Source: Limnohabitans sp. Rim8 (GTDB taxonomy: Bacteria; Pseudomonadota; Gammaproteobacteria; Burkholderiales; Burkholderiaceae_C). From it: DNA of 64,000 nucleotides. The position numbers and the translations under genes are program-made. Location of the stretch: contig NZ_CAMDLM010000016.1 of NCBI RefSeq assembly GCF_945901735.1, positions 1 to 64,000 of the forward strand, given 5' to 3'. The notes under the pieces were generated by a model. The model was not told the DNA's origin. It ran no database searches and saw only the letters and a program-made list of their open reading frames with translations. Shown piece after piece: positions 5,606 through 61,043 of this stretch; the stretch's first letter is position 1; each line of letters starts with the position of its first letter.

Positions 5606-5751
5606 GATGGACTCGGAAAATGGAGCAGCGCTGTAGGATTGGCGCGGGAATTTGGATTTTAAAGGAGATCGTTCGCCTCCCGATGGAGGCGAACCCCTGC
5701 TCACGACAGGGATGATGGTGAATCATACGCATGGGTCAGAGTGGCCCATTT

Positions 5752-6000
5752 GTCGGGGCTAAAGCCGCCGACCTACAAATCGATGTGTCACTCGGTGGCA
5801 TCTGCCCCGACATGAAATGAACCCGTAGGTCGGTGGCTTCAGCCCCAACATGAAATGAACCCGGTCGGTGGCATCCGCCCCGACATGAAATGAACCCGTA
5901 GGTCGGTGGCTTCAGCCCCAACATGAAATGAACCCGTAGGTCGGTGGCTTCAGCCCCAACATGAAATGAACCCGTAGGTCGGTGGCTTCAGCCCCGACAT
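5752..6000. repeat. family-A tandem array, about six units, 38-bp period
   Basis: Units of the form GTAGGTCGGTGGCTTCAGCC followed by CCAACATGAAATGAACCC begin near 5825, 5863, 5898, 5936 and 5974 (spacings 38, 35, 38 and 38), with a divergent unit at about 5792 and an inverted one at 5752-5775. Spacers are near-identical, so this is a true tandem repeat and not a CRISPR. It separates cysN from the fdxA promoter region and accounts for most of the 400 bp between those genes. Confidence 0.92.
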
Positions 6001-8279: not shown

Positions 8280-8427
8280 GTAGGTCGGTGGCTTTAGCTC
8301 CGACATCTGTCTTTTCGGGCTCAATGTCGGGGCTGAAGCCACCGACCTACGAGGTCAATGCATGTCGGGGCTGAAGCTGCCGACCTACGAGGTCAATGCA
8401 TGTCGGAGCTGAAGCTGCCGACCTGCG
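8280..8427. repeat. family-A tandem units between cysH and cysD
   Basis: One forward unit (8280-8304) followed by three units in the opposite orientation starting at 8325, 8363 and 8401, again with an exact 38-bp period and GAGGTCAATGCA between cores. The period matches that of the array at 5.8 kb, but the units are inverted and the spacer differs. Confidence 0.9.
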
Positions 8428-16903: not shown

Positions 16904-16930
16904 GCAAGACTCGCTGGAGGGGAGGTTGGC

Positions 16931-17037
16931 TGTTCAGCGTTGGGCGTTGAGCGTTGCGCGCCTTGCCTTTGCATTTCACGCTGAACGCTGAACGCTGAAC
17001 ACCAAACGCCCAACGCCCAACGCCCAACGCCCAACCC
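16931..17037. repeat. heptad tandem repeats with inverted symmetry
   Basis: The right part has three CGCTGAA-type heptads (16980-17000) followed by four or more CGCCCAA heptads (17007-17034). The left part (16931-16956, GTTCAGCGTTGGGCGTTGAG and on) is its approximate reverse complement, so the block can fold into a long hairpin. It directly abuts the yggX stop codon. Confidence 0.85.
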
Positions 17038-17313
17038 TTAACTGGCTGCAGGGGGCACGTAGCCTTGGGCGGCGTCTGCGCCATCGCCAAAGAAATGGTT
17101 TTCCATTTGGCGTGCCAGGTATTGGCGGGCGCGCAAATCGGCCAGGTTCAAGCGGTTTTCATTGACCAGCATGGTTTGGTGCTTCAGCCAGTCGGCCCAG
17201 GCCTGCTTGCTCACGCCTTCCCAGATGCGCTTGCCCAGCTCGCCTGGGTAGGGCGGAAAATCCAGACCCTCGGCTTCTTTGCCGAGTTTGATGCATTGAA
17301 CGTTGCGTGCCAT
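17038..17313 (-). CDS. yggX: YggX-type Fe(2+)-trafficking / oxidative damage protection protein
   Basis: 91 residues, the standard family length. The start [20 protein letters not shown] with the conserved Cys7, and the core W[13 protein letters not shown], identify the family. It is a small cytosolic protein implicated in protecting FeS clusters and handling iron. It is usually paired with mutY, which is absent here. The stop codon coincides with the end of the heptad repeat block. Confidence 0.95.
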
Positions 17314-39736: not shown

Positions 39737-39999
39737 GCATGTCGGGGCTGAAGCCACCGAAGATGTCGGACCTGAAGGCACCGACCTACAAATGCCAATC
39801 TCATCGCGGGGGCGCGACATGCCTCTCGTAGGTCGGGCCTTGATGGTCCGACAGCCATCCCTTCGCGGAGCGACATTTTCAAGGGGTGCTGGTGCACCGA
39901 AGATGTCGGACATGAAGGCACCGACCTGCAAATGCCAATCCCCCGTAGGTCGGGCCTTGATGGTCCGACGTGGGTCTATTCGCAAAGCGACATTTCAAA
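39737..39999. repeat. family-A composite elements (one full ~169-bp copy plus partial copies)
   Basis: The full copy runs about 39762-39930: an inverted core, a linker containing GGGGGCGCGACAT, a direct core GTAGGTCGGGCCTTGATGGT, a conserved middle (CCATCCCTTCGCGGAGCGAC) and a final inverted core ending CCGACCTGCAAA. A 39-bp stretch (39762-39800) recurs at 39902-39940, followed by a truncated copy (39945-39999). The block fills the convergent space between the crotonase and the HtrA-like gene. Confidence 0.9.
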
Positions 40000-43002: not shown

Positions 43003-43107
43003 GTAGGTCGGTGCCTTCAGGTCTGACATGGCGGGTGGTGCACCGTTGCCGTTTGACATGTCGCTTCGCGAGAAGATGAAATGTCGGACCATAAAGGCCC
43101 GACCTAC
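43003..43107. repeat. family-A composite element, 105 bp
   Basis: Begins GTAGGTCGGTGCCTTCAGGT and ends ATAAAGGCCCGACCTAC, so the two cores are inverted relative to each other. The centre contains TGGTGCACCG and TCGCTTCGCGAGAAGATGAA, homologous to the other composite copies. It lies between the acyl-CoA synthetase and flavin-reductase genes, both on the minus strand. Confidence 0.88.
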
Positions 43108-46223: not shown

Positions 46224-46591
46224 GTGGGGTTCCTTATTTGTTGATCGAAGTTGATCAGCAAAGTATCTGCTGGATGTCTGCTTTTTTCCTTCAGCGTATT
46301 CCCTTAATCCAAAAGGGCGGTTTTTTGCGGGTGCTCGGAGGGGCCAGTGCAGAGGTGCACTGTTGTCCCCGCACGGGTTTGGCCCCTTTGGGTCAATAGT
46401 GGATCTTTTTATTCTTTGAGGGATTTGCCCCCAAACCCCGTGCCCAAAGGTGTGGATAAGTCTTTGCACAACTGCGCCAAGCCGCATCTTGATTGGCGTG
46501 GCGGCGGGTGCTTAAAAATTAGGCAATGTGGGGCGCTTGCCATGAGCCTGGTGGCGGGCACGATTGCGGCTATTCTTATCCCTTCGCTTCC
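46224..46591. other. divergent intergenic region upstream of recC
   Basis: 368 bp holding promoters for the Bug gene (left) and recC (right). I see a small perfect hairpin GTGCAGAGGTGCAC near 46337 and some AT-rich stretches, but no recognisable RNA, riboswitch or repeat-family unit. Confidence 0.4.
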
Positions 46592-49500
46592 ATGTCTGCA
46601 CTTGTTCACCGCATGCCTGTCTCCAACATCGCCCCCGGTTTCATCGCCCTGCACAGCCACCGCTCCGAGCGGCTGGCCGACACCCTGACGGGCTGGTTGC
46701 GTGCGCACCCGCTGCACCCGCTCGAGAGTGAAGTGGTGCTGGTGCAAAGCAACGGCATGGCCGAGTGGATCAAGATCGAGCTGGCGCGCCAGACTGGCGT
46801 GTGCGCGGCCACGCGGGTGGAGCTGCCTTCGCGGTTTTTGTGGCGCACTTACCGGCAGGTGCTGGGCGCGCAGAATGTGCCGCCCGACTCGCCGCTGGAC
46901 AAACTGCCCATGACCTGGCGGCTGATGGCTTTGCTGCCGGGCTGTTTGGGGGACCCCGTCTTCAAGCCCGTGGCGGGTTTTTTGCGGGGCGACGAGCCCG
47001 ACCGCCTGCTGCAGCTGGCCAGCCGATTGGCGGATTTGTTTGACCAGTACCAAATTTACCGCCCCGATTGGCTGCAAGACTGGGCCGCCGGGCGCGATGT
47101 GTTGCGCAAATCGGCAGGTTCTGACGCGTTGGCCAAAGACCAACTTTGGCAAGCTGAACTCTGGCGGCGCGTGTTGGCCACACTCGATGACAAGCAGCGC
47201 GAAGCCACTCGCCCGGCTTTGCATGCGCGGGCGTTGGCGCATTTGCAGTCGGGTCAGCCCCTGGCCAGCGCCGTGGCGCGACGCGTGTCGGTGTTTGGCA
47301 TGAGCCACATGCCCGGGCAACTGCTGGAGATGCTGGCGGCGCTGGCCGCGCACAGCCAGGTGATGCTGGCCGTGCCCAACCCGTGCCAGTACCACTGGGG
47401 CGACATCATCGATGGGCGCGAATGGCTGCAGGCCGAGCGCCGTCGCCACGCTGACCGGGGCGAGGCCTTGGCCCATTTGCCGCTGGCGCAGATGCACCTG
47501 CACGCGCCCACGCTCTTGGCCGCTTGGGGGCGGCAGGGGCGCGACTTCATCCGCCAGCTCGACGCCTTTGACGACCTGCAAGCGGCCCAGCAACTCACGC
47601 AGTGGCCACGCCTGGATTTTTTTGACGATGTGCCCGGCGAAGACGGTACGCGCTTGTTGGCGCAGTTGCAGCGGCGTATTCGAGACCTGGAGCCGTCCAG
47701 TAGTGGTGCCCCTGTGGAGTCATGGACCCAGGGCGATCAGTCGCTGGTGTTCAAAATCGCGCACAGCCCTGTGCGCGAGCTGGAGGTGCTGCACGACCAA
47801 CTGCTGCAATGGTTCCACACCCCGCCGGGCGATCAGCCGGTGTCACCCCGCGACGTGGTGGTCATGGTGCCCGACATCGAAGTCATGGCCCCAGCGATCC
47901 GCGCCGTGTTTGGCCAGTACAAGCGCGCCGATGCGCGGTTCATCCCTTTTGACATTGCCGACCTGGGCGCGCAGGCCATCAGCCCGCTGATCCACGCGCA
48001 CGAGTGGTTGCTGGCCTTGCCGCAGCAGCGCAGCCGCATGAGTGAGCTGGTCGAGTTGCTCGAAGTGCCAGCGCTCGCCGCCCGCTTTGGTTTGAACGAA
48101 GACGGCCTGCCCACGCTGCTGCGGTGGATGGCCGGATCGGGCATCCGCTGGGGCCTGTCGGCCGAGCACCGCGCCGGCCTGGGCCTGGGCGTGTGCGGCG
48201 AGGACAACTCGGCGCTCTTTGGTGTGCAGCGCATGCTCATGGGTTACGCCTGCGGGGCGGACCCGGTCGACTCGGTGGACGCCAATGCGCCCGGGGCCAC
48301 GCCTTACCCTGAAGTGGGCGGGCTGGACGCCGAGCTGGCCGGGTCTTTGGCGCACCTGCTGCAGGCCTTGATCGACTGGTGGCAAATCTGCACGCAAGAG
48401 GCCACGCCCGCGCAATGGGCCGAGCGTGGCCGCGCATTGCTGGCTGCGATGTTCAAGCCGCGAGATGACAACGACCGCAACGCGATCGCGGCGCTTGACC
48501 AGGCACTGACCGACTGGGTGCGCGCCTGCGCCGAGGCGGGATTTGCAGAGGCCGTGCCGCTGGCTGTGGCGCGCTCGGCCTGGCTCGAAGCGCTCAAAAC
48601 GCCGCGCCTCGAGCAGCGCTTTCGGGCTGGGGGCGTGACCTTTTGCACGCTCATGCCGATGCGGGCGATTCCGTTCAAGGCGGTGTGCTTGCTGGGCATG
48701 AACGACGGCGACTACCCGCGCCGCAGCCCGCGTGCCGACTTTGACCTGATGGGCCTGCCCGGCATGAGCCGCCCCGGCGACCGCTCGCGCCGTGACGACG
48801 ACCGCCAGCTCATGCTCGAAGCCCTGCTGTCGGCGCGCCAAGTGCTTTATGTCAGCTGGAGCGGCCGCAGCGTGCGCGACAACAGCGAGCAACCCCCCTC
48901 GGTGCTGGTGTCGCAACTGCGCGACGAAATCGACCTGCTGTGGGGCAAGGGCACAGCCGTGCGCCAGACCACGGTGCACCCGCTGCAAGCCTTCAACCGC
49001 GCTTATTTTGAAAAAGGCAGCGGTTTGCAGACCTATGCCAAAGAGTGGCGTGCAGCGCAGAGCAATCTCCCTTTAGGAGCGGTCGCAGGCCGCGAAGCCC
49101 TTGCCGAAAATCTGTCGCGGCCTGCGACCGCTCCTACAGGGGCATCGGTCCCTTGGTTGCCCCCGTTGGAATCCGCGCAGGGCGTGCCCGTCATCACGCT
49201 AACCCAACTCACCCGCTTTCTGCGCAAGCCGGTGGGCGCGTTTTTCCGCGAACGCCTTCAGGTGCATCTGGAGGACGAACGCAGCGAGTTGCACGACCAG
49301 GAACTCTTTGGTCTGGCGGGTCTGGACCTGTACCAGTTGATCGACCGCGAGCTGCAGCATGTGCCGACCGCGCTGAGTGCCGCCACCTTGTCCGCGCATG
49401 TGCAGCAGGTGGTGCAGCGTCTGCGCCAGGCCGGGGCTTTGCCGCTGGCAGGCGTGGGCACGCTCGCCGCAGAACACCTCAAGGCCCGCTTGCAGGCCAT

Positions 49501-50155
49501 GCTGGGCACAGCGCTGCGCGAGCGGCAGGCTTACCCCGATGCGGCCGAGCGCCTGTTGGTGGATATGGCCCACTCCCAAGTGGCCTTGCAGGATACGCTG
49601 GGCGATGTGCTGGTGGGGGAGGGCGGGAAGATGTCCTTGCACCTGCGTGCCAGCGATCTGGCCAGCTTCAAGACCCAAAGGCCGCAGGCCCACCCGGACA
49701 AGCTGATCGACATTTGGCTGCTGTCGCTGGCCGCTGCCGCCATGGGCCAGCCCTTGAAGTGTGTGGTGGTGGGCCGCAACGCTGTGCTGCGCATGGCTGA
49801 GCCAACGCCAGAAGAAGCCCGCGCCCAGTTGACCGCGCTGTTGGCCGTGTGGGCCGAGGGCATGCGTTGGCCGCTGCCGCTGCCGCCCGGTGTGGCGCTG
49901 CAGTGGCTCAAAGACCCGGACAACCCCAACGCGCTGGCCGATGCCTACGAAGGCAGTGACTTCAAACGCGCCGAAAAAGACAAGGACCCGGCGCTGGCAC
50001 GCACCTACCCCGCGATGGAGGACTTGCTGGCCACGGGCGCGTTCGAGCGCCTGACTCAAACCGTTTACGCGCCCTTGAAGGCCTGGGCTGAGCAAGCCGA
50101 GATCGAGGCCTTGCCCGATGCGCCTCATGACAACGAAGAGGGAGAGTTGGCATGA
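46592..50155 (+). CDS. recC: exodeoxyribonuclease V gamma subunit (RecC)
   Basis: 1187 residues from the ATG at 46592 (ATG at 46613 also possible; neither has a strong ribosome-binding site). N-terminal FIALHSHRSERLADTLTGWL and VLVQSNGMAEWIKIELAR are the inactive-helicase start of RecC, and FCTLMPMRAIPFKAVCLLGM with YPRRSPRADFDLMG follow later. RecC holds RecB and RecD together and recognises Chi. An inverted palindromic repeat is embedded in frame at about residues 828-849, giving a Gly/Ala/Arg-rich insert. It overlaps recB by 4 bp (ATGA). Confidence 0.94.
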   Translation: MSALVHRMPVSNIAPGFIALHSHRSERLADTLTGWLRAHPLHPLESEVVLVQSNGMAEWIKIELARQTGVCAATRVELPSRFLWRTYRQVLGAQNVPPDSPLDKLPMTWRLMALLPGCLGDPVFKPVAGFLRGDEPDRLLQLASRLADLFDQYQIYRPDWLQDWAAGRDVLRKSAGSDALAKDQLWQAELWRRVLATLDDKQREATRPALHARALAHLQSGQPLASAVARRVSVFGMSHMPGQLLEMLAALAAHSQVMLAVPNPCQYHWGDIIDGREWLQAERRRHADRGEALAHLPLAQMHLHAPTLLAAWGRQGRDFIRQLDAFDDLQAAQQLTQWPRLDFFDDVPGEDGTRLLAQLQRRIRDLEPSSSGAPVESWTQGDQSLVFKIAHSPVRELEVLHDQLLQWFHTPPGDQPVSPRDVVVMVPDIEVMAPAIRAVFGQYKRADARFIPFDIADLGAQAISPLIHAHEWLLALPQQRSRMSELVELLEVPALAARFGLNEDGLPTLLRWMAGSGIRWGLSAEHRAGLGLGVCGEDNSALFGVQRMLMGYACGADPVDSVDANAPGATPYPEVGGLDAELAGSLAHLLQALIDWWQICTQEATPAQWAERGRALLAAMFKPRDDNDRNAIAALDQALTDWVRACAEAGFAEAVPLAVARSAWLEALKTPRLEQRFRAGGVTFCTLMPMRAIPFKAVCLLGMNDGDYPRRSPRADFDLMGLPGMSRPGDRSRRDDDRQLMLEALLSARQVLYVSWSGRSVRDNSEQPPSVLVSQLRDEIDLLWGKGTAVRQTTVHPLQAFNRAYFEKGSGLQTYAKEWRAAQSNLPLGAVAGREALAENLSRPATAPTGASVPWLPPLESAQGVPVITLTQLTRFLRKPVGAFFRERLQVHLEDERSELHDQELFGLAGLDLYQLIDRELQHVPTALSAATLSAHVQQVVQRLRQAGALPLAGVGTLAAEHLKARLQAMLGTALRERQAYPDAAERLLVDMAHSQVALQDTLGDVLVGEGGKMSLHLRASDLASFKTQRPQAHPDKLIDIWLLSLAAAAMGQPLKCVVVGRNAVLRMAEPTPEEARAQLTALLAVWAEGMRWPLPLPPGVALQWLKDPDNPNALADAYEGSDFKRAEKDKDPALARTYPAMEDLLATGAFERLTQTVYAPLKAWAEQAEIEALPDAPHDNEEGELA
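49074..49136. repeat. family-B inverted repeat pair inside recC
   Basis: Two perfect 22-bp arms (49074-49095 and 49115-49136; left arm TAGGAGCGGTCGCAGGCCGC plus GA) separated by 19 bp. It has the layout of a REPIN (two REP units in inverted orientation). It sits fully within the recC reading frame without stopping it. Confidence 0.95.
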
Positions 50156-53100
50156 GTACCGCCCACGCCCTCAATGCCCACACCTTCCCTCTGTGCGGCA
50201 GCCACTTGATCGAGGCCAGCGCTGGCACGGGCAAGACCTGGACCATTGCCGCGCTGTATGTGCGCCTGGTGCTGGGCCACGGCCACGATGGCACCGCACC
50301 TGTGCGCCCCATGCTGCCGCAAGACGTGTTGGTGATGACCTTCACCCGCGCCGCCACGCGTGAACTGTCCGACCGCATCCGTGCTCGCTTGACCGAGGCG
50401 GCGCAGGTGTTCCGAGGCCTGGCCAAAACCAACGATGAATTCCTGCAACAACTGAAGGACGGGTACCCCGAAGGCGAGCCGCGTGAGCAAGCCGCCCACC
50501 GACTGGCGCTGGCGGCGCAGGCCATGGACGACGCGGCCGTGTACACCATCGACGCCTGGTGCCAGCGCATGCTGCGCGAACACGCGTTTGACAGCGGCTG
50601 CTTGTTTGAAGAAAACCTGGTGGGCGACGAAGCCGCGTTGCGCCTCGAAGCGGTGCAGGACTACTGGCGTCAGCAGCTCTACCCCATGGGCACGGCCTTG
50701 GTCACGCAGGTCTTGGGCGTTTGGCGCGATGTACCCGCGCTCGACCAAGACATGCGCGCCCTGATGGCTGTGCCGCTGGACGATGCCGAACCTGGCACGC
50801 TGGCGCAGGTGTTGGGCCAGGCACTGGCCGAGCGCGATGCTCAGCTGGCGGCCCTCAAGCAGGGCTGGTGCGAGAAGGCCGATAACTTGTTGGGCTGGAT
50901 CGAGGCGCAGTTGGCGGTCAAAAAACACGGCTGGAACGGCGCTCTGCTGCAGGTTGGTCGTTCCCAAAAGTGGCTTGAAGCACTCAAGTCCTGGGCTCAA
51001 AGCGATGGCGACTTCAAAGCATTAAAAGGAGCGATGGGCAAAGGCTGGAACCGTTTCACGCCCGAAGGTCTTTTAGAGTGCCGCAAAGATGGCGATATGG
51101 TGGATTTGCCGCCAGAAAGCCAAACTTATGCGCACCTGTTGGCCGGACTTGAGGCCTTGCCCGAACCGACCCAAGTCGCCCGCCTGCACGCCCGCACCCA
51201 TGTGCTGCAGCGCATGGCCGAGCTCAAGCGGCGCAGCGGCTTGTTTGGCTTTGCCGACATGCTGCAACGCCTTGATGTGGCGCTGGCCGACCCCGACTCG
51301 GGCGAACGCTTGGCCCAGCGCCTGCGCGAGCAGTTCCCGGTGGCGATGATCGACGAGTTCCAAGACACCTCGCCGCTGCAGTTCCGCATCTTTGACCGCA
51401 TTTACCGCACGGCGGACAACCGGCCCGACATCGCGCTGCTGCTGATTGGCGACCCCAAGCAATCGATCTATGGTTTTCGGGGTGCGGACATCCACAGCTA
51501 CTTGGCCGCACGCCGCGCCACCGCCGGCCGCCACCATGTGCTGGGCACCAACTTCCGCTCTACGCAAGCGGTGGTGGCGGTGGTCAACCGCTGGTTCGAC
51601 CTGGCGCCAGACGCCTTTGGCTACCAGCAAGGCAATGAAGACCCGCTGCCGTTCCTGCCGGTGCAAGCTAATGGCCGCCCTGAAGTGTTCACGACGAGTG
51701 CAGGCGATGTGCCAGCCATGACCGTGGTGCACGACGCCTGCTTGCGCAGCACACGCGATGCACAGACGCAGTTGTCGGCCCTGTGCGCCGAGCAAATCGT
51801 GGCCTGGCTGAGCGACCCCCAAGCGAGTTTTACCGATGCGTTGAAAGGCGGCCAACCCTTGCAGCCCAAAGACATTGCCGTGCTGGTGCGCACCGGCAAA
51901 GAAGCCGCGGCCGTGCGCGATGCGCTGCGCGCACGCGGCGTGGCCTCGGTCTATTTGTCGGACCGCGACTCGGTGTTTGCCAGCGACGAAGCGCAAGACC
52001 TGTGCCTGTGGCTGCGCGGCGTGGCCGAGCCGCAAGACATGCGACGCGTGCGCGCCGCATTGGGCACGCGCACGGTGGGCCTGTCGCTGGCCGAACTGTA
52101 CGACCTGGCCACGCAAGACGAATTGCTGGACCAGCGTGCCGAGCAGATGCGCGAGCTGCACCAGACCTGGCAAAGCCAGGGCGTGCTGGCCATGCTGCGC
52201 CAGTCGCTGCATGTGCTGCAGCTGGCGGGGCGCTGGCGTGGCCAGGCCGATGGCGAGCGGCGTTTGACCCATGTGCTGCACCTGGCCGAATTGCTGCAAG
52301 CGGCCAGCGGCCAGATCGATGGCGAGCAGGCCCTGATCCGCTGGCTGGTCCAGCAGATCGACGAAGCGCAGTCGGGCAATTCCAGCGGCAGCGAAGCGCA
52401 AACCGTGCGGCTTGAAAGCGACGAAGACTTGGTCAAGCTCATCACCATCCACGCCAGCAAGGGCCTGGAGTACCCGGTGGTGTGCCTGCCTTTTGCGCAC
52501 AGCCACCGCGTGGTCACGGCCGACAAAGCCGCCGTGCTGCAGTTGGACAGCGGTGAGGGTCAACGACTGTGGACGCTGGACTTTGACAAAGAGGACTCGC
52601 AACTCGCGGACCTCGACCGCCTGCGTGAAGACCTGCGCCTGTGGTACGTGGCGCTGACGCGGGCGCGCCACGCGCTGTGGGTGGGCTGGAGCGCGGTCAA
52701 GCGCGGCAACGGCAAAACCTGCGTGAACCACAGCTGCGCCGCCGGGCATTTGCTGGGCAGCGGTCAAGCACTCGAAGCCGCCGATTGGCTGAACAAGTGG
52801 CAAACCCTGCAGACCAGCAAGCTTGGCCAGGTCTTGTCGGTGCACTTGCACCTCGCCCCCGCCGAAGTGCCGCTCACGCTTTGGCACAAGCCCGTGCAGA
52901 CCACCGCACTGCGCGAGGCCCTGAGCTGCACCGCCCGCATCGACAAGTCGTGGACGATCGCCAGTTTTTCGCGCCTGACGCGTGACCTGTCTTCGCAGTC
53001 CCTGGCGCCCTTGGTGTTGCACTTGAACCCGCCGCGCCCCGCAGACGACGAACCCCCAGAAGATACGGCCATGCCCACGGCCAGGCTGGCCAGCCCCGGT

Positions 53101-53823
53101 GCTTTGGCCCCCTGGCATGGCTTTGCCAAAGGCCCCACAGCGGGCAATTTTTTGCATGACCAACTCGAATGGTTGGCGGCAGAGGCCTTTGCGCTTGATG
53201 CGACCCAGGCCGCGCGCCTGAAGTACCGCTGCGAAAACGCCGGTTACAAGGCCCAGGCCGACGACGTGCTGCAGTGGCTCAGCCGTGTGGTGGCCCAGCC
53301 TTTGCGCGGGCCCAACGCGCCGCTGAACGCGTTGGGCACCTTGTTGCCCGAGATGGAGTTCTGGCTGCCCGCCGAGCGCCTGCATGCACGCCAGGTCGAT
53401 GCCCTGTGCCAGCAGCACCTGTTGCCCGGCGTGAGCCGCCCGCAGCTGCCCGACGCGCAGCTGCACGGCATGCTGATGGGCTTTGCCGACTTGGTGTTTG
53501 CGCACGAAGGCCGCTACTGGGTGCTTGACTACAAATCGAATTACCTGGGGGCCGATGACGCGGCCTACACCGCACAGGCCCTGGATGCGGCCATGGCCCA
53601 GCACCGCTATGAGGTGCAGGCTGCGCTGTACATGCTGGCGCTGCACCGCTTGTTGCGCGCTCGCTTAGGGGATGCCTATGACCCGGCGCAGCAGTTGGGT
53701 GGCGCGGTGTATTTGTTTTTGCGCGGCATCGACGGGCCTGCGGGCGGCTGCTGCACCTTGCCTGCGCCTTTGGCGTTGCTCGACGGCCTGGACGCCATGT
53801 TGAACACCGAGGGGGTGGCATGA
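50152..53823 (+). CDS. recB: exodeoxyribonuclease V beta subunit (RecB)
   Basis: 1223 residues. 3'-5' SF1 helicase with Walker A IEASAGTGKTWTIAALYVRL, Walker B IDEFQDTSPLQF, motif LLIGDPKQSIYGFRGADIHS, motif V/VI region TIHASKGLEYPVVCLP and WYVALTRARHALWVG. The C-terminal RecB nuclease domain has a D-Y-K triad part in WVLDYKSNYLGADD. It is the motor and nuclease of the RecBCD complex for double-strand break repair. 4-bp overlaps with recC and recD imply translational coupling. Confidence 0.96.
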   Translation: MSTAHALNAHTFPLCGSHLIEASAGTGKTWTIAALYVRLVLGHGHDGTAPVRPMLPQDVLVMTFTRAATRELSDRIRARLTEAAQVFRGLAKTNDEFLQQLKDGYPEGEPREQAAHRLALAAQAMDDAAVYTIDAWCQRMLREHAFDSGCLFEENLVGDEAALRLEAVQDYWRQQLYPMGTALVTQVLGVWRDVPALDQDMRALMAVPLDDAEPGTLAQVLGQALAERDAQLAALKQGWCEKADNLLGWIEAQLAVKKHGWNGALLQVGRSQKWLEALKSWAQSDGDFKALKGAMGKGWNRFTPEGLLECRKDGDMVDLPPESQTYAHLLAGLEALPEPTQVARLHARTHVLQRMAELKRRSGLFGFADMLQRLDVALADPDSGERLAQRLREQFPVAMIDEFQDTSPLQFRIFDRIYRTADNRPDIALLLIGDPKQSIYGFRGADIHSYLAARRATAGRHHVLGTNFRSTQAVVAVVNRWFDLAPDAFGYQQGNEDPLPFLPVQANGRPEVFTTSAGDVPAMTVVHDACLRSTRDAQTQLSALCAEQIVAWLSDPQASFTDALKGGQPLQPKDIAVLVRTGKEAAAVRDALRARGVASVYLSDRDSVFASDEAQDLCLWLRGVAEPQDMRRVRAALGTRTVGLSLAELYDLATQDELLDQRAEQMRELHQTWQSQGVLAMLRQSLHVLQLAGRWRGQADGERRLTHVLHLAELLQAASGQIDGEQALIRWLVQQIDEAQSGNSSGSEAQTVRLESDEDLVKLITIHASKGLEYPVVCLPFAHSHRVVTADKAAVLQLDSGEGQRLWTLDFDKEDSQLADLDRLREDLRLWYVALTRARHALWVGWSAVKRGNGKTCVNHSCAAGHLLGSGQALEAADWLNKWQTLQTSKLGQVLSVHLHLAPAEVPLTLWHKPVQTTALREALSCTARIDKSWTIASFSRLTRDLSSQSLAPLVLHLNPPRPADDEPPEDTAMPTARLASPGALAPWHGFAKGPTAGNFLHDQLEWLAAEAFALDATQAARLKYRCENAGYKAQADDVLQWLSRVVAQPLRGPNAPLNALGTLLPEMEFWLPAERLHARQVDALCQQHLLPGVSRPQLPDAQLHGMLMGFADLVFAHEGRYWVLDYKSNYLGADDAAYTAQALDAAMAQHRYEVQAALYMLALHRLLRARLGDAYDPAQQLGGAVYLFLRGIDGPAGGCCTLPAPLALLDGLDAMLNTEGVA

Positions 53824-55991
53824 GTTTGAAAAACCCCCCACGCATCACGACCGTGCCCACCGCGCAAATGGATTGGATCAAGGACCTGCCAGCCCAAGGC
53901 CTGCCCACCCAAGGCCTGTCCGCTGTGCAAACGGTTCAGTGGTTGAACCTGTGGACGGGCCAAGGCCTGCTGCGCCACATCGACAGCGCCTTCGCCGCAC
54001 AAGTGCTGCGCCTCGACGCCGGTGCCCCTGCACCCTGGCTGGTGGCTGCGGCCATGCTCGCGCACATGGAAGGGCGCGGCCACACCTGCTTGTCTTTGGC
54101 CGAGTTGTGCCAGCCGCCAGTGGCCTTGCTGGGCTGGCCTGCTGTAGCCGTGGAAGGCCCGCAGGGCCTGAAGGCCTTGTGGGCACACCTGCCCGCCACG
54201 CTGGCCGACTGGCAAACCGCTTTGCTGGGCACGGTGTCTGGCGCGTGTTGGCGTGGGGTCGATGCCCCCGACCAAGGCCAGCCGCTGGTGCTGGGTGGCC
54301 CGGCCGATGCGCCGCTTTTGTACCTGCGCCGTTATGCGGGCTATGAGCAGCGCGTGGGCCAGAGCCTGCTGCAGCGTGCCAGCGAGCCCCTGGCCGTGCC
54401 CGAAGCGGCGGCACGCGAATGGCTGGACCGTTTCTTTGTGCCCAACCCCGAAGCGCCCAATCCCGAAGCGCACCACCTCACCGACTGGCAAAAGGTGGCC
54501 TGCGCTGTGGCACTGCGCGCGCGCCTGTCGGTCATCACCGGTGGGCCCGGCACCGGCAAGACCTACACCGCGGCCCGCTTGCTGGCCCTGTTGCTGGCGC
54601 TGCACCCCGATGGCACACCGCTGCGCGTGGCGCTGGCCGCGCCCACCGGCAAAGCAGCGGCGCGCCTGAAGCAGTCGATCGACGACGCATTGACCCGCTT
54701 GCCTGTGCCTGTTGACTCGGGGCTGGACCTGGGTGCGCTGATCGCCCGCATGGGCCCGGCGCGCACACTGCATTCGCTGCTCGGGGCGCGGCCCGACACA
54801 CGCCAGTTCCGCCACCACGCGGCCAACCCGCTCGATGTGGATGTGCTGATCGTGGACGAAGCCTCGATGGTGCACCTGGAAATGATGGACGCCCTGCTGC
54901 AGGCCCTGCCGCCCACAGCCCGCTTGGTGTTGTTGGGCGACAAGGATCAACTGGCCTCGGTCGAAGCCGGTGCGGTGTTGGGCGACCTGTGCCAAGACGC
55001 GGCAGCGGGCCGCTACAGCGGGGCCACGGCGCAGTTTGTGCAGCGCGCAGCCGGGCAGACCCTGGCCGCCGAATTTGTGCAGCCCGATCCGGCCCCTGTG
55101 TTGGCCCAGCAAACCGTGATGCTGCGCCAAAGCCGCCGCTTCAAAGGCGCCATCGGCCAGCTGGCCCTGGCCGTGAACCGGGGCGATGCCATTGCAGCCC
55201 GCGACGTTTTTGTAGGACCGGCCTCTGGCCGCGATGGCTTGGCTGGCGATTCCTCGCGGTCGCAGACCGCTCCCACAGGGCCACTTTCTGCCCTGCTGGC
55301 TCTCCAGCCGAGCAGCCCCCAAGCGGTCTGCGCCCTGGCGCTGGGCGCAGCGGGCAAGCCTTCGTATGCCGATTACCTTCGCCTCATGCAAACTGGCCCG
55401 GCAGGGCAGGGTATGGCAGCGCACGCCAGTTGGGTCAGCAGCGTGCTCAAGGCCTTCGAGCGGTTTCGCATTTTGTGCGCGGTGCACCAAGGCGACTGGG
55501 GCACGCAAGCGCTGAATGCAGCGGTGCAAAAAGCCTTGGCCGATGCGGGCTTGCTGCACATCCAGGGCGAGTGGTACGAGGGGCGGCCCGTCATGGTCAC
55601 GCGCAACGACGCACAGTTGGGGGTCTTCAATGGCGACGTGGGCGTGGTGTTGCCGGGCACCGAGGGCAAGCCCAAGGTTTGGTTTTTGGACGGTCAAGCC
55701 CTGCGATCGGTGAGCGTCATGCGCTTGGCCCAGGTCGACACCGCGTTTGTCATGACGGTGCACAAAAGCCAGGGCTCGGAGTTCGAGCACACCGCGCTGG
55801 TGTTGCCACCGGGCGCTGCCGAGGTGCTCAGCCGCGAGCTGGTCTACACCGGCATCACCCGGGCCCGCGAGCAGTTCACCCTGATCGAAGCCGAAGCCGG
55901 TTTGCTCGAAGCGGCCACCCACCGCCCCAGCATGCGCGCCAGTGGTTTGGCCCAGAGGTGGGCCCAGCCGCTTGTGAAGGCCGGTGCCTGA
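53820..55991 (+). CDS. recD: exodeoxyribonuclease V alpha subunit (RecD)
   Basis: 723 residues, longer than E. coli RecD (608). 5'-3' helicase motifs: Walker A ITGGPGTGKTYTAARLLAL, Walker B LIVDEASMVHLEMMDALL, VLLGDKDQLASVEAGAVLGD, and C-terminal FVMTVHKSQGSEFEHTALVL and TGITRAREQF. A family-B repeat lies in frame at about residues 464-486 (VGPASGRDGLAGDS...), which explains part of the excess length. It is the last gene of the recCBD operon. Confidence 0.95.
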   Translation: MSLKNPPRITTVPTAQMDWIKDLPAQGLPTQGLSAVQTVQWLNLWTGQGLLRHIDSAFAAQVLRLDAGAPAPWLVAAAMLAHMEGRGHTCLSLAELCQPPVALLGWPAVAVEGPQGLKALWAHLPATLADWQTALLGTVSGACWRGVDAPDQGQPLVLGGPADAPLLYLRRYAGYEQRVGQSLLQRASEPLAVPEAAAREWLDRFFVPNPEAPNPEAHHLTDWQKVACAVALRARLSVITGGPGTGKTYTAARLLALLLALHPDGTPLRVALAAPTGKAAARLKQSIDDALTRLPVPVDSGLDLGALIARMGPARTLHSLLGARPDTRQFRHHAANPLDVDVLIVDEASMVHLEMMDALLQALPPTARLVLLGDKDQLASVEAGAVLGDLCQDAAAGRYSGATAQFVQRAAGQTLAAEFVQPDPAPVLAQQTVMLRQSRRFKGAIGQLALAVNRGDAIAARDVFVGPASGRDGLAGDSSRSQTAPTGPLSALLALQPSSPQAVCALALGAAGKPSYADYLRLMQTGPAGQGMAAHASWVSSVLKAFERFRILCAVHQGDWGTQALNAAVQKALADAGLLHIQGEWYEGRPVMVTRNDAQLGVFNGDVGVVLPGTEGKPKVWFLDGQALRSVSVMRLAQVDTAFVMTVHKSQGSEFEHTALVLPPGAAEVLSRELVYTGITRAREQFTLIEAEAGLLEAATHRPSMRASGLAQRWAQPLVKAGA
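55211..55277. repeat. family-B imperfect inverted repeat inside recD
   Basis: Left arm TGTAGGACCGGCCTCTGGCC (55211-, continuing GCGA) and right arm starting TCGCGGTCGCAGACCGCTCC near 55254 are imperfect complements of the family-B unit and keep the recD frame open. They are more diverged than the recC copy. Confidence 0.85.
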
Positions 55992-57597: not shown

Positions 57598-57651
57598 GTC
57601 GGCCATGGCGCAGTTCGATCGGGATGTGCTGACGAGCCAAGACACGGTTTT

Positions 57652-57793
57652 GTAGGTCGGTGCCTTCAGGTCCGACGTCTTGAGTGCGTCACCGCCTCTT
57701 GAAAATGTCGCTCCGCGAAGGGATGGCTGTCGGACCATAAAGGCCCGACCTACAAAAAGAAGGAATGTCGGACCCTCAAGGCTCTGACCGACG
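57652..57793. repeat. family-A composite element (102 bp) plus half unit
   Basis: Starts GTAGGTCGGTGCCTTCAGGT and ends AAAGGCCCGACCTAC at 57753. The centre CTCCGCGAAGGGATGGCTGT is the reverse complement of the middle of the copies at 39.8 and 60.9 kb. A further partial unit follows at 57764-57793. It occupies the convergent gap between the aminotransferase and amiC. Confidence 0.9.
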
Positions 57794-59777: not shown

Positions 59778-60887
59778 ATCGACTTTCTTGAACTGTGGCC
59801 CCAGATCCAGGTCTGGGCGCGTGAGTTGGGATTGTCCCAAATTGGCGTGACGGGCATCGATTTGTCCTCGGCAGAGCCCGGATTACAGGCTTGGTTGGCT
59901 GAGGGTTTTCACGGCAGCATGGGCTACATGGCAAGCCATGGCATGAAGCGCGCCCGCCCGGCCGAGCTGGTGCCGGGCACGGTGAGCGTGATCACCGCCC
60001 GAATGGATTACTTGCCGCAGGGCACCCCGCCAGAGTGGTTGGCGCGTGAAACCGCCCGCAGCCTGCAGCCAGCAGAGGCGGTGGTGTCGCTCTATGCCCG
60101 GGGGCGTGACTACCACAAGGTTTTGCGCAGCCGCCTGCAAAAACTGCAGGACCGCATCGCCGAGGCGATTGGCCCCTTTGGCCACCGCGTGTTCACAGAC
60201 TCTGCGCCGGTGCTGGAGGCCGAGCTGGCCACCCGCAGCGGCTTGGGTTGGCGCGGCAAACACACGCTGGTCCTCTCACGCGAGGCCGGGTCGATGTTTT
60301 TTCTGGGCGAGTTGTTTGTGGACTTGGCGCTGCCCGAAACGCCTGCCGCATCGGCGCATTGCGGCCAGTGCACTGCCTGCATGGACCTGTGCCCCACGCA
60401 GGCCATCGTCGGCCCCTACAAGTTGGATGCGCGGCGCTGTATTTCTTATTTGACGATTGAGCACGCCGGGCCGATTGACGAGGCCTTGCGGCCGTTGATT
60501 GGCAACCGAATTTATGGCTGCGACGACTGTCAGCTGGCTTGCCCCTGGAACAAGTTCGCGCAAATCAGCCCTTTGCCCGATTGGCAAGCGCGCGACGGTT
60601 TGGGCGCGGGCAGCATCGCTGAGCTCATGGCCTGGAACGAAGCCGAGTTTTTGCGCCGCACCGAGGGCAGCGCCATCCGCCGAATCGGCCATGCCCGCTG
60701 GTTGCGCAATCTGGCCTTGGCGGCGGGCAATGCGCTGGCCACCTCGGCCTTGCCGGAAGGTGAGCGCCAGGTTTTGCTGCAGGCGTTGGCTGTGCACACT
60801 GCCCACCCAGACCCGGTGGTGCAAGAGCAGGTGGCTTGGTCGCAAGCCCAAAATGCGGACCGCCTTGCGCCAAGAAGTCGGGCCTGA
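59757..60887 (+). CDS. queG: epoxyqueuosine reductase
   Basis: 376 residues from a GTG at 59757. B12/FeS enzyme for the last step of queuosine synthesis. SGLGWRGKHTLVLSREAGSM and the two 4Fe-4S motifs CGQCTACMDLCPTQAI and CDDCQLACPWNKF identify it, with a HEAT-like C-terminus (RRIGHARWLRNLALAAGNAL). The last codons (RSRA and the TGA) are formed by a family-A repeat unit at 60877-60902, so the C-terminal tail is repeat-derived. The frame extends upstream to 59109 antisense to tsaE/amiC without conserved sequence. Confidence 0.94.
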   Translation: MTAQRTQIDFLELWPQIQVWARELGLSQIGVTGIDLSSAEPGLQAWLAEGFHGSMGYMASHGMKRARPAELVPGTVSVITARMDYLPQGTPPEWLARETARSLQPAEAVVSLYARGRDYHKVLRSRLQKLQDRIAEAIGPFGHRVFTDSAPVLEAELATRSGLGWRGKHTLVLSREAGSMFFLGELFVDLALPETPAASAHCGQCTACMDLCPTQAIVGPYKLDARRCISYLTIEHAGPIDEALRPLIGNRIYGCDDCQLACPWNKFAQISPLPDWQARDGLGAGSIAELMAWNEAEFLRRTEGSAIRRIGHARWLRNLALAAGNALATSALPEGERQVLLQALAVHTAHPDPVVQEQVAWSQAQNADRLAPRSRA

Positions 60888-61043
60888 AGGCGCCGACCTA
60901 CGAAGAGCGATTCCATCGGGGGCGCGACATACCTCCCGTAGGTCGGGCCTTTAGGGTCCGACAGCCATCCTTTCGCAAAGCGACATTTTCAAAGGACGGT
61001 GGTGCACCGAAGATGTCGGACCTGAAGGCACCGACCTGCAAAA
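60877..61043. repeat. family-A composite element, ~167 bp
   Basis: Same order of blocks as the 39.8-kb copy: inverted core GTCGGGCCTGAAGGCGCCGA, linker with CATCGGGGGCGCGACATACC, direct core GTAGGTCGGGCCTTTAGGGT, middle AGCCATCCTTTCGCAAAGCG, and a final inverted core ending CCGACCTGCAAA. It begins inside the 3' end of queG and fills the convergent gap to an AEC transporter gene. Confidence 0.92.

Follow-up and report, generated by a model that had tools for sequence, protein, structure and literature searches.

In a freshwater clade that includes Limnohabitans sp. Rim8, resident REPs appear to have been inserted in frame, or to have replaced older REPs, within the near-neutral linkers of RecC, RecD and MutL, a reading to which we assign a probability of roughly 0.7. 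The presence of REPs in repair genes is already known, and what is added here is that three linkers have been occupied repeatedly within a single clade. Such REPs had been recorded in individual species in 2013, without an explanation. Within the clade, natural alleles of RecC, RecD and MutL are available by the dozen, ranging from those without a REP to those with one or several, from different families, so that neutral, adaptive and selfish explanations of the inserts become directly testable by comparison of alleles.

REPINs within the recBCD locus

The window analyzed here is a stretch of 64,000 nucleotides from contig C16 (NZ_CAMDLM010000016.1, positions 1 to 64,000) of a 3.67 Mb genome in 66 contigs, whose closest RecB relatives in a RecB tree belong to Limnohabitans and to Comamonadaceae or Burkholderiales genomes. 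It carries recC, recB and recD in head-to-tail order at 46526-55991, with the following features:

46526..50155, plus strand: recC, 1209 aa; REPIN in the linker preceding the RecC_C domain
49074..49136, no strand assigned: recC family-B REPIN, 63 bp; arms 49074-49095 and 49115-49136, 19-nt loop
50152..53823, plus strand: recB, 1223 aa; without REP
53820..55991, plus strand: recD, 723 aa; degenerate REPIN inside
55213..55275, no strand assigned: recD family-B REPIN, degenerate; arms 55213-55234 and 55254-55275

The recC product matches Exonuc_V_gamma (E=4.9e-91), RecC_C (890-1129, E=3.5e-39) and E. coli RecC 1w36_C (E=1.7e-146), and the recD product contains RecD_N and AAA helicase domains and matches E. 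coli RecD 1w36_D (E=1.9e-107).

The perfect inverted pair previously described in recC was recovered with all 22 arm positions complementary, and its tag reads TTAG, which is changed from the GTRG tag of the family. The pair in recD is degenerate, as was also described, its arms lying 2 and 1 mismatches from the family pattern. Both genes are open across the palindrome, in agreement with the earlier claim that the reading frame is kept. That claim extended to an addition of 21-23 residues; residues are indeed added, but the net gain is slightly smaller, namely 17 codons per gene. Between fixed anchors, 47 residues are present in recC versus 30 in the insert-free L037, and the same numbers (47 versus 30) were obtained for recD against the insert-free L035 and others. 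The E. coli counterparts are approximately residues 805-825 of RecC for the recC linker and approximately residues 387-402 of RecD for the recD insert. The recD insert site is also filled in L033, L037 and L070, so this copy is shared and hence not recent. In a low-quality AlphaFold model of a RecC fragment based on a 40-row alignment (pLDDT 60.0), the insert region (pLDDT 41-46) was mostly without helix or strand, and the model made without an alignment (pLDDT 36.7) was too poor for use.

Four matches to the family pattern were present in the window against 0.07 expected, and none of 100 shuffles reached four, which practically rules out a chance origin of the palindromes in GC-rich coding sequence, as does the presence of the same repeat at 20 other sites of the genome. 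When up to 3 mismatches were allowed, family-B matches in the window consisted of the four recC and recD arms and 3 unpaired matches, each with 3 mismatches.

Family B in the genome and its putative RAYT

The genome-wide count of family B that the preliminary description had called for revealed a genuine multicopy family (all family letters were assigned in this analysis). The pattern AGGAGCGGNCNNNGNCCGCGA gave 46 half-sites genome-wide versus 13 for the reversed control, and 22 sites were distinguished, comprising 20 in 17 retrieved stretches together with those in recC and recD. In most copies, a GTRG tag precedes an imperfect palindrome of approximately 20 nt (GTAGGAGCGGTC... and GTGGGAGCGG...). 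Inverted pairs in REPIN orientation were found at 13 of the 22 sites, the rest being single, in opposite order or clustered.

A RAYT, for which a search had likewise been suggested, was represented by a RAYT-like Y1_Tnp gene on contig C29 (147 aa, E=1.6e-9), with a Pfam match spanning model positions 5-83 of 121. Family-B REPs lie on both sides of it, which is the arrangement of a RAYT with its REPs, and its translation contains HLHW, which we take to be the HUH motif. On the basis of their sequences, the repeats can be considered genuine GTAG-type REPINs, and the RAYT-like protein may have moved REPs into the linkers.

Distribution of REPs within and between genes

REPs were expected to be excluded from genes as a rule, and this expectation held for both families examined in the genome of the window. 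Family A (GTAGGTCGG...CCGACA) is more abundant than family B, with 134 half-sites versus 1 for the control, and its 65 clusters among the matches listed were distributed as 60 intergenic, 5 touching gene ends and 0 within genes. The repeat family of recC and recD had also been reported from the gaps of the cys operon; this was not confirmed, the intergenic palindromes identified in the window belonging to the different family A:

5751..5999, no strand assigned: family A REP cluster, intergenic
8280..8388, no strand assigned: family A REPs, intergenic
39764..39929, no strand assigned: family A REPs, intergenic
43003..43107, no strand assigned: family A repeat pair, intergenic; palindrome at 43003-43028
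57648..57757, no strand assigned: family A repeat pair, intergenic; palindrome at 57652-57677
60876..61039, no strand assigned: family A REPs, with a 12-nt overlap at the 3' end of an open frame

For family B, 4 of the 22 sites lie in genes (recC, recD, mutL and an rmlB-like dehydratase gene), 15 are intergenic, 2 are at gene ends and 1 is in a doubtful 5' extension of ureF, as judged by a codon-usage ORF caller made for this analysis. The arms at all four in-gene sites are read in one frame, giving residues like VGAVSDRD and SRSETAPT. Repair genes account for three of these four sites, and in each of recC, recD and mutL the REP is in frame and wholly within an intact gene. The earlier view that two tolerated copies in one repair complex are unusual was supported, and mutL is a third repair gene likewise carrying REPs, which sit between the DNA_mis_repair (220-336) and MutL_C (490-635) domains of its product. 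The copy in the rmlB-like dehydratase gene (L105:2668-3774) is a degenerate family-B REPIN in frame, with related copies in G037 (L244) and G071 (L232).

A similar distribution was observed in other genomes. In the L064 genome (G091), 61 of 64 family-E clusters among the matches listed were intergenic and 3 were in open frames, two of which were read as 5' extensions, while the third, judged a real in-gene case, probably lies in the linker of a fused ABC permease; this sample follows the order of the listed half-sites (157 in total), and the contig with recC, recD and mutL lies outside it. A family-B peptide search of 90 genomes gave matches in 12 genomes, and 16 regions, a subset of the matches, were retrieved. 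Paired in-gene copies in these regions were those of recD (2 regions) and rmlB (2 regions); four regions touch gene ends, one of them also entering the 5' part of ureF, one gene has a single weak half-site, and the remainder are intergenic. The mutL cluster was missed by this search, its units being arranged differently.

REPs in the RecC, RecD and MutL linkers of the clade

A genome scan yielded 66 RecC loci, in which the segment from EWRAAQ to the RecC_C domain is hypervariable and often built of REPs from different families, namely B, D, E, F and a CGTC type. With rows not covering the linker left out (L073, L077 and L096 in the case of RecC), a REP was found in 27 of 45 clade RecC rows (B 10, CGTC 9, D 4 with L039 being doubtful, E 3 and F 1) and in 9 of 34 clade RecD rows (B 4, D 2 and E 3). 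The REP classifier tolerates as many as 4 mismatches and called a REP in 14 of 1240 random 140-nt segments drawn from these loci; true intergenic REPs may be among them. Outside the clade, 19 RecC and 14 RecD rows showed no match to the tested REP families, so these segments do not represent old conserved protein, the outcome that would have spoken against the preliminary description.

REPs were also detected in 15 of 30 MutL linkers, some with more than one family, the 30 loci being those most similar to the MutL of the window and therefore biased toward family-B relatives. RecC, RecD and MutL share family B in the window, L070 and L033, and share family E in L045, L053 and L064, the MutL copies of L033 and L053 being weak matches with 2-3 mismatches. 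Family D is present in both RecC and RecD of L040 and L042, where by eye MutL has an E-type REP in L040 and none in L042. The pattern GGAGCGN{9,10}CGCGA gave 74 half-sites against 10 for the control in L053, 157 against 11 in L064, 150 against 5 in L045, 84 against 11 in L040, 32 against 10 in L042 and 20 against 3 in L041. These values indicate that the resident families are multicopy in the genomes checked.

On the RecB tree, a quick one-gene tree with long outgroup branches, the REP state changed at least 14 times in RecC (53 rows, with L039 set to none) and at least 8 times in RecD (48 rows). Presence or absence of a REP changed at least 7 times in RecC and at least 7 times in RecD, counts whose independence could be lowered by local hopping, as recC and recD are 6 kb apart.

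Several individual loci show additional features. Long RecC linkers of approximately 100-120 residues between anchors occur in L061, L064 and L093 and consist of stacked REPs, of the CGTC type in L061 and L093 and of the E type in L064. In a MAG (L092:1-2030), the recC linker, which holds a family-D hairpin in relatives, is where the gene breaks into two overlapping open frames; either part of the hairpin has really been deleted or the assembly has collapsed there. Another contig stops within the recC linker at the hairpin (L060:12604), as if the palindrome had broken the assembly. The contig of L036 is titled Akkermansia muciniphila, but both its RecC and its RecB are placed within the Limnohabitans clade; it is probably a mislabelled or contaminated MAG.

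Control genes

No REPs were found in the best matches to the Pfam models of DnaX, FtsK, InfB, TonB and MutS (0/30 loci each, 0/150 together), nor in clade RecB (0/43 loci). MutS and RecB also belong to repair genes, which implies that being a repair gene is not by itself the rule. DnaX, FtsK and TonB provide better controls than InfB and MutS, because most loci of the latter two belong to genomes with a RecC less than about 50% identical to that of the window. Unlike recC, recD and mutL, the genes for DnaX, FtsK and InfB are essential in other bacteria. A scan of 892 kb round recBCD (46 loci and the window) placed strong palindromes 34 times between genes, 3 times at gene edges and 9 times in the recC frame, of which 6 were at the linker; none was found in any gene but recC, the score cut-off being too strict for any recD copy and for the weaker recC ones.

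Age, possible arm correction and selection

The preliminary description considered the recC copy recent since it is near perfect, and asked whether it might be strain-specific. Neither suggestion survived the comparison with relatives, because the loop (AAGCCCTyGCCGAAAA) and the position are common to seven other genomes (L033, L038, L043, L044, L067, L074 and the more diverged L035). The copy is therefore probably older than these species, unless alleles have been exchanged. A perfect palindrome alone is no evidence of recent insertion. Of the 22 arm positions, 13-18 are paired in the seven relatives and all 22 in the window, and relative to the majority of the seven, the arms of the window carry 7 differences, 6 of which form three mirrored pairs. 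The chance of three such pairs among 7 random changes in 44 positions is approximately 0.0015 (by hand arithmetic, with complementarity of the letters not required). The mirrored changes suggest that the perfect arms reflect correction or conversion rather than youth, and they may have been kept perfect by templated hairpin correction or by conversion. None of the family-B pairs compared carries the GCAGG form in both of its arms, so that no full donor was seen among them. Compensatory changes across the REPIN hairpin are described as common in the relevant part of an earlier study (PMC3116915).

Different selective regimes were indicated by dN/dS for the linker and the cores. Versus L033, values of 0.11, 0.17 and 1.15 were obtained for the recC core, the recD core and the recC linker, and versus L044 they were 0.11, 0.13 and 0.56; versus L053 the recC and recD cores gave 0.16 and 0.13, the linker value being not computable. 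Judging from these ratios, which rest on 34 codons for the linker, the recC linker seems to evolve near neutrally and the cores under purifying selection.

Possible explanations for REPs in the linkers

The REPs of the clade are nearly confined to intergenic space, with the RecC, RecD and MutL linkers as a standing exception. In several lineages, the resident REP family may have entered these linkers, or replaced an older REP in them, in a stop-free frame, and the inserts would persist because the linker is near neutral, the remainder of the protein being under purifying selection. Retention may then result from linker tolerance, perhaps together with dispensability of the repair genes, rather than from a benefit. 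Such renewal of near-neutral linkers would explain the retention, frame and variety of the inserts but not the choice of recC, recD and mutL. In particular, tolerance fails to explain why three of the four family-B in-gene sites are in repair genes while DnaX and TonB, also variable in length, have none in the sampled loci. Dispensability, selection for altered repair and a selfish advantage are not separated by the present data. That the Rec complex is connected with the spread of these elements, as was raised initially, is a speculation.

A tentative alternative is that each linker received one old REP, whose sequence then tracked the resident family through gene conversion between REPs or templated hairpin correction. 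The RecD copies of families B, D and E share the same site, orientation and frame, a constancy that would fit replacement as well as new insertion, and both the three mirrored change pairs in the recC arms of the window and the remains of one family beside another in some MutL linkers point in the same direction. However, the RecC inserts of different families vary in position, length, orientation and number, the repeated changes between presence and absence in both RecC and RecD are not expected from single old copies, and RecC of L070 has two tandem family-B units, the second of which shares its loop with L036 and not with the window.

It is unlikely that a few insertions spread between species through exchanged recBCD alleles and thereby inflated the change counts on the tree. 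RecB of L070 does lie outside the group of the window, yet the insert in its recC is similar to the one in L036. Several arrivals would nevertheless still be required to bring several families into the same linkers, and the same pattern is shown by comparable MutL loci, which in most genomes are on other contigs or far from recBCD.

An adaptive role of REPs in repair genes was suggested by Di Nocera et al. (PMC3733652), and the concentration in repair genes, seen here and in the part of that article concerned, agrees with inserts that change the activity of RecBCD or MutL and thereby increase mutation or recombination. We regard this as rather improbable in the present case, because the recC linker is near neutral and the cores are conserved, insert sequence and length vary widely, and MutS and RecB are without REPs in the sampled loci. 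We know of no phenotype of the inserts.

A further and very doubtful proposal concerns the genes themselves. RecBCD acts at broken ends, and MutL takes part in heteroduplex rejection. REPs might preferentially be kept in, or directed to, genes acting against palindromes and diverged-repeat recombination, and the slightly weakened proteins would aid the persistence of the resident REP family, so that each new family recolonizes the three linkers. If this were true, an intragenomic arms race would be recorded in RecC, RecD and MutL.

Relationship to previously described elements

The closest precedent is the work of Di Nocera and colleagues in 2013 (PMC3733652), the relevant part of which reports in-frame REPs within genes, many with functions in replication and repair and with recBCD proteins among them, as well as two Xanthomonas species that have different REPs at roughly one position in recB. 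Flexible linkers were considered there as tolerant sites, and mutators were speculated on. The intragenic GTAG- and CGTC-tagged REPs of that study resemble the present ones in lying in frame within repair genes, whereas recC, recD and Limnohabitans are unnamed in the portion of its main text considered (PMC3733652). Relative to that portion, the present analysis differs in finding several families, from both super-families, in the same RecC, RecD and MutL linkers of one clade, and in adding shared old copies and gene controls. In our literature search, to which subscription journals were largely external, no report of REPs in Limnohabitans RecC, RecD and MutL was recognized.

Rickettsia palindromic elements (RPE) also add in-frame residues to proteins, a likeness in kind only; their sequence is not known to match that of the REPs described here. 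The QMITEs of Coxiella (PMC5896051) are likewise miniature palindromic elements that sometimes add in-frame residues; they are other elements, and repair genes are not singled out in the part of the article concerned. The REPINs and RAYTs of Bertels and Rainey (2011, PMC3116915) are similar in the paired inverted REP hairpin, the linked tyrosine transposase and the compensatory arm changes, but the relevant part of that article describes REPINs as extragenic, whereas the recC and recD copies are intragenic.

Additional repeats and transposase genes

Short direct and inverted repeats of GTTGGGCGTT/GCTGAAC units occur in the window at 16924-17042 and have no relation to REPs. A second Y1 transposase (G000:C11) was considered as a mover of family B and rejected, a scan of its surroundings (L115) showing no family-B REP. 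This region (L115, G000:C11:89000-95400) has an inverted repeat, TTAATTGGGGTCAGATCCCAATTAA, with copies approximately 765 nt apart, and resembles the TIR-flanked tyrosine transposases mentioned in part of PMC3733652. Arrays of family-B REPs are present in Limnohabitans sp. Bal53, at L237:1078-1599 (11 half-sites within 520 bp) and L233:255-1682.
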